From: Darksidea phi
Taxonomy: Eukaryota > Ascomycota > Dothideomycetes > Pleosporales > Lentitheciaceae
DNA: 64,000 nt
Reading direction: 5' to 3'
Assembly (NCBI GenBank): GCA_030770425.1
Contig: JASJFT010000040.1
Span: forward strand, 62,001-126,000
Every line of letters starts with the position of its first letter. Positions within the stretch are counted from its first letter, which is position 1. The translations under genes and the position numbers were made by a program. The notes below the pieces were generated by a model. It made no database searches. It saw only the letters and a list, made by a program, of their open reading frames with translations, and was not told where the DNA came from. Shown piece by piece: positions 36,001 to 57,327 of the stretch.

Positions 36001-36716
36001 TTTCCGAGATGCCATCAATGAAGGCTTTCGTGGCAAAGAAAGAAATGCTAAAGGAAGCGAGATATATCAGTATAGGAGGGGGAAATATGAACGAAAGTGG
36101 AATTGCACCACCAAGAATGTTAGTAGGATCGACTCGTCTGAGGAGGTTACATGAATTCTCTGAATAAATGTCACGTAATCTTCCAACATATAGTGCGTAC
36201 ATGAAACTCCTAAGTTGACGTAAGGATCCCCATCTTCATGGTCCTTTAACATACCCCCTCTTTATCTCGTAGCTGTCTTGTCAATTCTTTAACTAGCACC
36301 CATATGCTCCCAAATTCTTGAATTTGGACCGAGATGAGCATGCGCCCCAAACGGCCCCATGATCTTGAGTGGAAAATTTTAGTGGGCTGGATATCTCCAA
36401 CATACCTCTTTGATATGCGCTGCCTATTGAGACACGAGCATTCCTTACGCTGCCAACGAACGCAATAATCTTTTCTGGTAATAGAATGATACTTGATGTT
36501 GCGACCGCCGAACCCTATTTAACATCTTCGGTTTCATACTACATCAAACACGAAGCTATAGCCCCGCACTCATCACACCCAGCCCCACACAGCCCACAAA
36601 TTCCAAATTCAGCCAACACACTAATTATCCTTTCGCCGATTCCACACGTCGCACCTGCTACAAAAAATATATATAAATTAATTATCCCTGTCAAAACTTA
36701 AAAAAAGAAAGTCAAT
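33041..36716. other. 3.7-kb AT-rich, gene-poor region with possible gene remnant
   Basis: Clearly more AT-rich than flanking gene blocks, with no intact gene. At about 34369-34577 there is an exon-like open stretch that ends at a GTGAGT donor-like site, but no partner exon can be found, so it may be a gene relic. A 104-codon frame at 35853-36167 has no recognised features. Its character suggests decayed repeats, but no transposon ends are identifiable. Confidence 0.45.
36668..36677 (+). promoter_or_regulatory. TATA-like element upstream of tRNA-Gln
   Basis: TATATATAAA lies 40-49 bp before the tRNA 5' end, in an AT-rich tract. Upstream TATA elements support Pol III initiation at tRNA genes in some fungi and would also serve Pol II. 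This matters because the internal B box is interrupted. Confidence 0.5.
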
Positions 36717-36861
36717 GGTTTTGTAGTGTAGCGGTCATCACTCCGGATTCTGACCACATCAGAATTTACAATTTCCGGCAACCCCGGTGTAAGTTTCACC
36801 ATTACTTTGATCACAACCATCGGTTAGCTAATAAGTACTCCAGTCGAATCCGGGCAAGACC
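36717..36861 (+). tRNA. tRNA-Gln (anticodon CTG) with two introns, one of spliceosomal type
   Basis: The exons fold as a complete tRNA. The acceptor stem GGTTTTG (36717-36723) pairs with CAAGACC (36855-36861) over 7 bp. The D arm GTG/CAC has a loop containing GG. The anticodon stem CCGGA (36743-36747) pairs with TCCGG (36774-36778), with loop TTCTGA and anticodon CTG at 36750-36752. A 19-nt tRNA intron occupies the canonical 37/38 position (36754-36772), and its TCAGA pairs with TCTGA of the anticodon loop, as in normal pre-tRNAs. The T stem CCCGG (36783-36787) pairs with CCGGG (36850-36854). The T loop reads TTCGAAT only when a 55-nt insertion (36789-36843) after T54 is removed. The mature length would be 71 nt before CCA. 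The A box TAGTGTAGCGG is intact, but the B box is split. A T10 run follows. Confidence 0.88.
36789..36843 (+). other. 55-nt spliceosomal-type intron in the tRNA T-loop
   Basis: It starts with the consensus donor GTAAGT, has a fungal CTRAY branch point CTAAT (36828-36832, branch A at 36831, 12 nt before the end) and ends CCAG. Its 55-nt length matches introns of the neighbouring protein genes (46-90 nt). Exact removal gives T-stem/loop CCCGG-TTCGAAT-CCGGG. I see no bulge-helix-bulge at its ends and no target-site duplication. Confidence 0.8.
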
Positions 36862-37268
36862 TCAAGACAATTTATATTTTTTTTTTGACTTTCCCGCGGT
36901 ATGTGGTTACTTTGTTCGGATACGCTGTGGACGATTCGTTTCGTCGAGAACACATTACAGTATAAGAAATGCGGATATCCAAAATCATGCAGAAATTCAC
37001 TGTGCCGTCGGGCTCTTCTATCTTCTATTATCCGCTTTTATTTATTTCTTTTTTGCTGTAGTCAATATCTAGGAGAATGACATGCAATATGTGTTGAAGA
37101 GCCATTACATTAGGAGGCCGTCCATTAACGCAGAAGAACGATTCTAGAATCTCAATGCACCCATTGTGCCTGACTGCCGTTGGTCTTTTCTTGTGCTACT
37201 CCTGCATTTTACATCAAGCTAGACCACACCTCCCTCACGATCACTATGAAATTTTTCCTATTCAACCG
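36862..37268. other. spacer between tRNA and SDR gene
   Basis: Apart from the terminator this 407-bp AT-rich stretch is the 3' region of the SDR gene. Nothing further is recognised. Confidence 0.5.
36877..36886 (+). terminator. Pol III T10 terminator of tRNA-Gln
   Basis: Run of ten T residues starting 16 bp after the tRNA 3' end, more than sufficient for RNA polymerase III termination. Its persistence argues that the locus is or was recently a Pol III gene. Confidence 0.75.
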
Positions 37269-54929: not shown

Positions 54930-57327
54930 TCAAAACCGACTCTTGCGCGGCTTCTTCGGCGGAGGTCCCTCATCCCCTTCCGGCGCCGGACGAGCCTTCT
55001 TCTCGCTGCTAGGATACGGACTACGCGAGAAACACAATGTCAGCAGTTGCCTTAAGAACAGACATTCAGGACCTTTACATTTACTGTCTACTGTGCAATG
55101 CAGAAGGGATAACTAAAGACATGAGTATGAAGGGTGAAATGGACTAGGTGGGATCATGCGGTGTCGAAAGTAAGTCATGTCCCTACCACATCAAGGACTG
55201 GCTATGATATTGCAGCTACCGTGGCAGCTGCAGCCGCCTTGCCCTTGTGCTTCCGCTTCTTCGCTGTCGAGTGAGGTTTCGCGTTGCCGGGAGGGGGAAG
55301 GGAGATATTCTTTGATGACACATACCCATTGATTTCCTTGTCCAGCTGCATGAACTCGTTGGCGGCGTCTTCGCCCGCATAGTCAAGCAGATACTCCATG
55401 TAGTAGTGCGAAAGCTCCTGGGAGATGTCGGCCTGGAAGCGACCCTTGGTGCGCAGGAGGTCGTGAACAGCTTTTACGCGCGCATGGGCTTCGTCCTTGT
55501 CAGATGCGGTTTGAGCGGTTTCAAACTCTAGATACTTGAGCCAGAATTGTTTCGAGTCAAGAAACTTGTCATGCTTCTCCTTGAACAGTTGCCGGGCCTC
55601 ATCGGTCGCACCTTTACACTTCCAGAGGATGCGTGCTTGCTCTGCAGCGAGCACGCCACCCACTTGAGCATTGCGTGAGTCTATGTAGCTCTCCAAGGTG
55701 CTTACTGCGGCATCGTTACCCTCGTGTCGACGGTCCACGCCAGCCAAGGAGATGATGGTTTCGACATGATCTGGCACCTGCTCGAGAATAGCGATGTGGA
55801 TGTCGCGGGCAATCGAAATGCGGCCAAGTTTCTCTTCGAACCGAGCCCAGTTGAGGCGGACAGTGGACTGGGAGATTGGTACGAATATGCAGCTTGCTCG
55901 CATATAGACAAGCCGACAATCTTCATCCTTGCCCTGTGAGAATAGCCAGCGTGCGTAGCGTAGCCAGAATTCCTCGTAAAGGGCGCACGGAACAAGGCAT
56001 CGCTCGTATAGGAAGCTGGTGCGCTGGAAGTCGCCTTCCTTCTCCTCATAATCGAGATACTTGCGCCAGTTCTCCACCTCGGATTCTTCCAGATCGGTAA
56101 CGTGGAAGTACGCTCGCTTGATGGCATTCTCAAACTGCCAGCGCGCCTGAACGGCGACCTGCGTCTTGGCGTAGATATCGTAATAGTAGTGGTCAAGCTT
56201 GGCACGGATTTGACGGTCGATCTCCAGTGGAGCGCGTTCGAAGCCTATATTCTCATGTTCGACGGCAGCCTTCACCGTCTCAAGAGTCTCGGTATCGGCA
56301 AGTTCCTCAATGGGCCGAGTACTGATGAGTGCGCGAAACTTCTCATAGTACCGGGAGAACTGGTACATGGGGAACTGAAAGACTCGGCCATATAACTTGG
56401 TGACGTTGGCCGTCTCGTTGATCCGGTCTTCGAACTCTATGTACTTGTCCCAGAAGGGATGGCTCTGGAAGTCGAGGCCGACAAAGTGTGCGCCGCGCTC
56501 GAAGAGACTGTACGGTTAGCTTAGTATAGGAGCCTGGGGAAGAGAGAGGAGGGACAGATGCGGGTGAGCTTGCAATACAGATAAATCACGAAGTCATCCG
56601 TTCGACCAGATCACCCTTCTTGTGACAAGGTAGAATCCTATGTGTTGTCGTGCGGGTGCTGATGCGAGGGCAGAGGGCAGAGGGCATATGTGGCGCGGTG
56701 AACGCGCAAAAAGTGATGTGCTAGCAGCAATGAGTGCACTAGCTAGCTACAGCCGGTCTATCGTCGGCTATGCGTGCGGTTGAGTTCACGAATCAAGGAA
56801 GGTAGCAACACTTACTCTCGTGTAGCATCGTTGTCATGGCAGGTGTCCATCTTGAAGGAGCAGTAGTGAGCCCAAAGGTCCACTGAGCTCGGTATGCACG
56901 ATACGCCACGCTCATATACCTGCAACACAGTTAATGCATGCCCTTTCTGACAACCGTATGGATTCGGACCATCTCAGCCGTCTCGGTGCCGCCGATAGAG
57001 AACTCGAGATCGGCGTATTTCTTCCAGTATCCGAAGAAGAGAGGGAACTTGGCGAGGAAGCAGTCGTAAACGTTGCGGACGAGCTCAATGGCCGACGGGC
57101 TGGAGTTGCGGGTGACACCGCCTTCGAGGTCTGTTGCGCGCGTGACTAGCAGCTCCCATTTCTCGAATTCATCTTCGCTCTCGATCTAAAGCTTGTCAGC
57201 GCGGGTGCTTCTTGCAGGACTGAGCAGAAGGACTCACTGTGGCGTCAAGGAGCTTCCTAATCTCCGCAGCCGCCTCGTCGCCGGTATACTGCACATTGGC
57301 GATGCTGCCGCGACCGGTCACCAACAT
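54930..57327 (-). CDS. PRP39: pre-mRNA-processing factor 39 (U1 snRNP, HAT repeats)
   Basis: U1 snRNP component needed for 5' splice-site commitment. Five exons (57238-57327, 56970-57185, 56816-56919, 55326-56507, 54930-55020) encode 560 aa made of HAT repeats: WELLVTRATDLEGG, FFGYWKKYADLEF, VYERGVSCIPSSVDLWAHY, LFERGAHFVGLDFQSHPFWDKYIEFE, and further copies to about 520. Intron 2 (50 nt) has an unusual GTCCGA donor, yet its removal joins ETAEM to VYERGV perfectly. The last intron (305 nt) starts with a strong GTATGT and has a CTGAC branch point; splicing gives KEINGPYPSS and a basic tail ending KKPRKSRF. If it is retained, translation stops at 55202 after a different basic tail (571 aa). Confidence 0.92.

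Follow-up and report, generated by a model that had tools for sequence, protein, structure and literature searches.

In Schizosaccharomyces pombe, U6 RNA, a product of RNA polymerase III (Pol III), matures by loss of an mRNA-type intron (Tani and Ohshima 1989, cited in PMC10484740); only one snRNA is concerned, and its intron is thought, in the portion of PMC10484740 consulted, to derive from reverse splicing near the catalytic nucleotides of U6. Ascomycete nuclear rRNA genes are also described as carrying spliceosomal introns (Cubero 2000, Bhattacharya 2000, in the passage of PMC11889510 that cites them). Among tRNA genes, the closest precedent is the red alga Cyanidioschyzon merolae: according to the relevant parts of PMC9602550 and PMC3978253, its nuclear tRNA genes have introns outside 37/38, including one in the T arm at 53/54, which break the A and B boxes, and an upstream TATA-like element has been proposed to substitute for the broken boxes. 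The Guillardia theta nucleomorph has ectopic tRNA introns too, many without a defined bulge-helix-bulge (BHB) (Kawach 2005, cited in PMC3978253); in the part of PMC3978253 that describes them they are not called spliceosomal, and our comparison with them is by description. A further system for comparison is that of introner-like elements in fungi (van der Burgt 2012, listed among the references of PMC11889510).

Here we present a tRNA-Gln(CTG) gene of Darksidea phi. We propose that it is a living nuclear gene with an endonuclease-type intron at 37/38 and a U2-type spliceosomal intron at 54/55, one of at least 17 genes so invaded; judging from sequence, we give this reading a probability of about 0.88. 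Like S. pombe U6, it would be a non-coding RNA gene that Pol III transcribes and a short spliceosomal intron interrupts; unlike it, many tRNA genes are involved, and 13 of the 17 carry an endonuclease-type intron besides. With ascomycete rRNA, a Pol I transcript, it would share spliceosomal introns in non-coding RNA, here in tRNA instead of rRNA. As for an intron in U6 of D. phi itself, none is seen: the only U6 match listed in its genome (47 of 2843 candidates scored) runs continuously over 100 nt. We found no report of spliceosomal introns in tRNA genes in the open-access literature, which leaves most subscription and all preprint-only work outside and whose long result lists were partly inspected.

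The window, a 64-kb stretch of DNA, corresponds to positions 62001-126000 of contig C335 in a 51.35-Mb assembly of 477 contigs. Reading of the sequence and a cloverleaf parse place the gene at 36717-36862 of the window, on the forward strand, with two introns of 19 and 55 nt. Its first exon (36717-36753) holds positions 1-37, that is, the 5' strand of the acceptor, the D arm and the anticodon CTG. A 19-nt intron (36754-36772) follows in the anticodon loop at 37/38, the ordinary endonuclease-type position. The middle exon (36773-36788) supplies the 3' strand of the anticodon stem, the V loop, the 5' strand of the T stem and T54. It is followed at 54/55 by the 55-nt spliceosomal-type intron (36789-36843), which reads GTAAGT...CTAAT...CAG; pattern search and parse locate the putative branch point CTAAT at 36828-36832, its last A 12 nt from the 3' splice site. 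The last exon (36844-36862) contains the T loop from position 55, the 3' strands of the T stem and acceptor, and the discriminator T73. Without both introns the gene yields a perfect cloverleaf of 72 nt including T73, with 7/7 acceptor, 5/5 anticodon-stem and 5/5 T-stem pairs and the loop TTCGAAT. On the same strand, a TATA-like element, TATATATAAA, lies upstream at 36668-36677 and a Pol III terminator-like run of ten T downstream at 36877-36886.

This anatomy bears out an earlier, sequence-only reading, which had described a tRNA-Gln(CTG) gene with a spliceosomal-type insert in the T loop next to an ordinary 19-nt anticodon intron. The observation is confirmed; its gene end at 36861 and spliced length of 71 nt omit the discriminator base T73. 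Standard annotation passes the gene by: ARAGORN finds no tRNA in the 64-kb window, Rfam at gathering score gives neither a tRNA nor any other match there, and a genome search with RF00005 (63 of 1735 candidates scored) does not have the window gene among the matches listed. Since ARAGORN and Rfam at gathering score miss it, similar cases may hide in annotated fungal genomes. About 18 kb away the window also contains a Prp39-like gene (55205-56515, reverse strand; best named homolog from Periconia digitata, 73% identity), whose homologs place the fungus in the Pleosporales. Prp39 is a U1 snRNP splicing factor, and its nearness to the Gln(CTG) gene is probably a coincidence.

The sequence-only reading had asked whether other tRNAs carry such inserts, and 16 further genes of the same architecture do. 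In total, the genome has 17 tRNA genes with clean cloverleaves that are cut outside the anticodon loop by GT-AG inserts of 49-66 nt, three degenerate cut loci (L112, L142 and L147) and 33 uncut genes, the last judged by eye. The inserts lie in the T arm (14), the V loop (2) and the anticodon stem (1), and 13 of the 17 cut genes carry an anticodon intron as well.

These genes were collected by several routes. Querying with the window gene led to a Gln(TTG) gene, likewise cut in the T arm. The Rfam tRNA search of the genome listed 57 matches (63 of 1735 candidates scored) and led to cut Ala(AGC), initiator Met (iMet) and Lys(TTT) genes; 18 of its matches, on contigs C304, C417 and C382, were taken as mitochondrial and dropped before counting, while the other 39 comprise 28 genes intact by eye, four cut and seven doubtful (L013, L027, L035, L049, L050, L052 and L055). 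C304 and C417, in particular, are dense in AT-rich tRNA genes. Four more doubtful loci (L116, L120, L121 and L152) were left out of the counts.

Patterns of splice signals added His, Glu(CTC), elongator Met and a degenerate Arg(ACG). One such pattern gave 68 matches against 44 for its reversed control; 50 places were read, two of them found earlier, and a cloverleaf scan of these 50 gained His alone, with false matches in L069 and L082, the tRNA model detecting nothing in the 49 others. A second gave 70 matches against 113 in the control, and the 14 places fetched yielded Glu, elongator Met, the degenerate Arg and the odd locus L116 (C5:149750-150110), whose positions 201-272 are an uncut tRNA-like stretch scoring 33.1 bits. 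For a further pattern there were 17 matches against 10, with three fetched; and GGTGNGT..AG..TCGA had 38 matches, the tRNA model matching none of the three fetched (L113, L126 and L130).

D-arm patterns, which impose no intron criterion, gave 187 matches against 195 for reversed-pattern controls and are thus mostly chance; the 20 places fetched nevertheless added cut Trp, Pro(CGG), two Pro(TGG), a second Ala(AGC) and three Gly(GCC), together with degenerate Pro(AGG)-like and Lys(CTT) loci and uncut Phe (two) and Pro(AGG) genes. A query of 13 spliced tRNAs contributed the second cut Glu and one uncut Glu. Another, of 11 tRNAs, matched the two Gln genes only and so says little on the other ten. 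We also built an insertion-tolerant covariance model from 17 sequences, three of them cut: it spans the intron in 13 of the 17 cut genes, and its match runs into the intron in one Ala gene, Ala(b), and the three Gly genes. The survey found no gene for Val, Tyr and several other isoacceptors; it is therefore incomplete and all counts are lower bounds.

Several other tRNA-like sequences were met on the way. Many places carry a tRNA-Ser(GGA)-like sequence (GGAGGGATGGTCGAGTGGTGTG...): it is present in L050 and L052, which have a common tail downstream of it, in similar form in L120 and L121, and as D-arm matches on C13, C67, C136, C152, C182, C187, C321, C425 and C439. It looks like a tRNA-derived, SINE-like repeat. 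Positions 1216-1264 of L016 hold a damaged second tRNA-Arg(CCG)-like copy (21.1 bits) just upstream of the intact one, and L055 (C29:73591-74085) resembles a Gly tRNA but is odd in that its T-arm region is present twice (two TTCGATTCC stretches).

Removal of the introns restores a cloverleaf in all 17 cut genes. All 16 parsed genes have 7/7 acceptor and 5/5 T-stem pairs, with an anticodon stem of 5/5 in 13 and 4/5 in three; the exons of the 17th are identical to those of one of the 16. With tRNA positions counted from the 3' end, the intron follows position 28, in the anticodon stem, in Lys(TTT); 45, in the V loop, in elongator Met and Trp; 52 in one Ala and both Glu genes; 53 in Gln(TTG), His and one Pro(TGG); 54 in Gln(CTG) and iMet; 58 in the other Ala, Pro(CGG) and the other Pro(TGG); and 60 in the three Gly genes. 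At 52/53 of the locus L147 (C77:11810-12190), a Lys(CTT), there are a GTAAGT 5' splice site and CTAAC, but the AG and the T loop are both missing, so that it appears to be a cut tRNA gene now dead.

All 17 inserts begin with GT[AG]NG[TCA], have YTRAY within their last 20 nt and end in AG. To keep out genes chosen by their splice sites, the window gene and the three pattern-found genes were omitted from a test set of 13: full splice signals occur in 13/13 of these genes, found without a splice-site criterion, versus 4 of 39,000 shuffled inserts, GT..AG alone being reached by 271 of the 39,000. From the branch A to the 3' end the distance is 9-12 nt in 13 of the 14 genes with CTRAY. The exception is a Glu gene, where the script chose a later CTGAT; by eye, a CTAAT stands 10 nt off. 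Two branch points depart from CTRAY, TTTAAC in Lys and TTGAC in Pro(CGG).

The 17 inserts have a median length of 51 nt within their range of 49-66. In the window, five mRNA introns are fixed by the protein they interrupt, at 44, 49, 51, 52 and 52 nt, three of them with a second possible reading. CTRAY occurs in three of the five; DAP3 has TTGAC and MRI1 no clear motif. One further mRNA intron candidate of the window measures 125 nt, one junction gave none, and a looser frame-joining scan returned 23 overlapping candidates of 46-129 nt. The tRNA introns are therefore comparable to the shorter of the local mRNA introns, and the match between insert and local mRNA intron length claimed for the window gene holds for the set, whose median of 51 nt stands beside the 44-52 nt of the five protein-fixed introns. 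The resemblance extends to the 3' end, where the Gln(TTG) intron skips an earlier AG, as does the PAN1 intron of the window. The inserts hence display three marks of U2-type introns: the 5' splice site, a branch-point motif near the 3' AG and an mRNA-like length.

Could the T-arm inserts instead be ectopic tRNA introns cut by the tRNA-splicing endonuclease as in C. merolae, with GT-AG incidental? The tRNA-Ile(UAU) of that alga has introns at 12/13, 37/38 and 53/54, as given in the part of PMC9602550 consulted, and three genes here are cut at 53/54. C. merolae disruptions are, however, discussed as BHB-mediated in the passages at hand, and our inserts combine U2-type signals with the lack of a strict BHB (0 of 17); the control is weak, strict pairing being reached by just 2 of the 12 anticodon introns that these genes contain. 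Central-helix pairing averages 1.5 of 4 in the inserts, the chance level, versus 2.8 of 4 in those 12 anticodon introns; in a relaxed pairing window the two classes overlap with little separation. The motif geometry used throughout is the generally known one. Many Guillardia nucleomorph introns also have no defined BHB (PMC3978253, in the part describing them), so that BHB absence alone does not exclude endonuclease cutting. What this explanation leaves unaccounted for is the presence of U2-type signals in 17/17, and we consider it highly improbable next to spliceosomal removal. Self-splicing was also considered: group I and II introns have a catalytic core of a few hundred nucleotides, all 17 inserts are too short at 49-66 nt, and the window has no Rfam match at gathering score. 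We reject this candidate.

The cut genes look alive, as far as their sequences tell. Three Gly(GCC) genes have identical exons (71/71), with introns that match at only 33/57 to 40/56 aligned columns and flanks that match no better; one Gly intron pair keeps a weak similarity (z 4.4). Of the three Glu(CTC) genes, two are cut and one is uncut; all three have exons identical over 72/72, the introns of the cut pair matching at 36/59 columns. Likewise, three Ala(AGC) genes, one uncut, one cut at 52/53 and one at 58/59, are identical in their exons (72/72), and their cut-pair introns match at 31/57 columns; for both Glu and Ala the cut-pair flanks match no better than the introns. Cut and uncut iMet are identical at 72/72, cut and uncut His at 55/71. 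A second elongator Met, L152 (C1:608370-608575), is without the V-loop intron and has a T loop short by two bases (TTAAT).

Gln with both anticodons, Trp, Lys(TTT), Gly(GCC), Pro(CGG) and Pro(TGG) are known in our survey only as cut genes. The 13-tRNA query, which did find uncut iMet, Ala and Glu genes, found no junction-spanning uncut copy of Gln(CTG), Gln(TTG), Gly(GCC), Trp, Lys(TTT), Pro(CGG) or Pro(TGG), a result that bears on near-identical copies only: it missed the known uncut His (55/71), so divergent uncut copies of the others could escape it as well. A partial Gly-like match appeared at C79:42194-42229 in the same query.

It follows that the count of intact tRNA-Gln(CTG) genes stands at none uncut, within the reach of a search for near-identical copies. 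The pseudogene alternative of the sequence-only reading is disfavoured by this absence and by the identical exons of cut paralogs. In its general form, with the cut genes as dead copies that took introns and were never spliced, it can point to the three degenerate loci among 20 cut ones and to the uncut paralogs for iMet, Ala, Glu and His. Yet the other 17 retain full cloverleaves, Gly, Glu and Ala keep identical exons on both sides of diverged introns, and near-identical uncut Gln, Trp, Lys(TTT), Gly(GCC), Pro(CGG) and Pro(TGG) were not found by the 13-tRNA query. Death of all these copies thus seems very unlikely, and we return to living, spliced genes.

Transcription of most such genes would involve an interrupted promoter, as the T arm contains the Pol III B box. 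In the unspliced genes the best B-box match is at least 8/10 in 16 of 17 (random 140-mers: 86 of 3000), two of the matches being outside the T arm. The best match of Gln(TTG) is inside its intron; for one Pro(TGG), Pro-TGG(a), it falls in the D arm. No gene does worse than the window gene, whose 7/10 is equalled or exceeded by 760 of 3000 random 140-mers. At 52/53, the intron AG plus GTTCGATTCC rebuilds a full B box, and the iMet intron has its own TGTTCGATTCC. In a simulation that put every one of the 17 introns behind each position in turn, the best B-box match of the unspliced gene averaged 9.65/10 at 52, 8.71 at 53, 7.24 at 54, 6.65-6.94 at 55-57, 8.0 at 58, 7.41 at 59 and 7.94 at 60. The T-arm sites observed are 52, 53, 54, 58 and 60, with none at 55-57 or 59. 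A rule siting introns by the B box would fit 52, 53, 58 and 60, and not the window gene at 54; because related copies are not independent, we offer it as a hypothesis only.

Outside the genes, where enough upstream sequence is available, TATAWA occurs within 70 nt of 10 of the 16 cut genes and of 18 of the 31 uncut ones, versus 29 of 2000 random 70-mers from the window. A run of at least four T lies downstream of all 17 cut genes; the longest T run inside any of the introns is 4. These data bear on whether Pol II makes longer precursors of the tRNAs, which would be spliced in the manner of mRNA before being trimmed. The mRNA-like splice signals would suit such an origin, as would the B boxes damaged in some genes, the window gene (7/10) worst of all. 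Against it stand the TATA-like elements and T runs beside the cut genes, TATA being as frequent there as in uncut genes; that no intronic T run exceeds 4 also fits Pol III, a weak point. On balance a Pol II origin appears unlikely, though less remote than the endonuclease and dead-copy explanations.

We therefore favour transcription by Pol III and propose the following course for Gln(CTG). Pol III would transcribe the gene; the internal promoter may withstand many of the introns because these sit where letters of the splice sites restore a good part of the B box, and the upstream TATA element could be a second way of keeping Pol III. A U2-type spliceosome would take out the 55-nt T-arm intron in the nucleus, and the tRNA-splicing endonuclease and ligase would handle the 19-nt intron at 37/38. 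RNase P and tRNase Z need the acceptor/T-arm shape. Because the intron interrupts the acceptor-T-arm domain for as long as it is present, the spliceosome would be expected to act before end trimming and export. The need for two splicing machineries, first suggested for the window gene, is supported by its sequence and by the 16 further genes.

How the introns arose is a separate matter. The sequence-only reading had suggested an introner-like gain, which our comparisons do not favour. Fungal introner-like elements are reportedly near-identical copies in protein genes; unlike them, the 17 introns share no clear body similarity save one Gly pair. Near-identical copies of the 55-nt intron were sought and none was found: a genome search with the window gene and its intron returned only itself and the Gln(TTG) gene (query 1-81), and of the 136 intron pairs among the 17, one, between two Gly paralogs, exceeds z 3. 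A recent introner burst is not supported, with no clear shared intron sequence in the genome-wide search with the window intron or in the 136 pairs. The three states of Ala(AGC) with identical exons imply that introns came in more than once, or came and went, among identical paralogs.

Altogether, many tRNAs of Darksidea phi probably need the mRNA-splicing machine besides the tRNA-splicing enzymes. It is likely that tRNA maturation in this lineage has come to depend on the spliceosome as an essential enzyme: of the clean nuclear tRNA genes found, about a third (17/50) would need it, 13 of the 17 would need the endonuclease too, and the introns would have been gained repeatedly at sites that partly rebuild the B box. 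The set dependent on the spliceosome includes the only genes seen for Gln and Trp. If functional, these introns are exceptions to the rule that the tRNA endonuclease is what removes introns from nuclear tRNAs. They would provide natural experiments on how the spliceosome recognizes a 70-nt structured Pol III RNA, and on the order of splicing relative to end trimming, export and T-loop modification. They would also represent intron gain into a new class of host genes, with uncut paralogs as controls.
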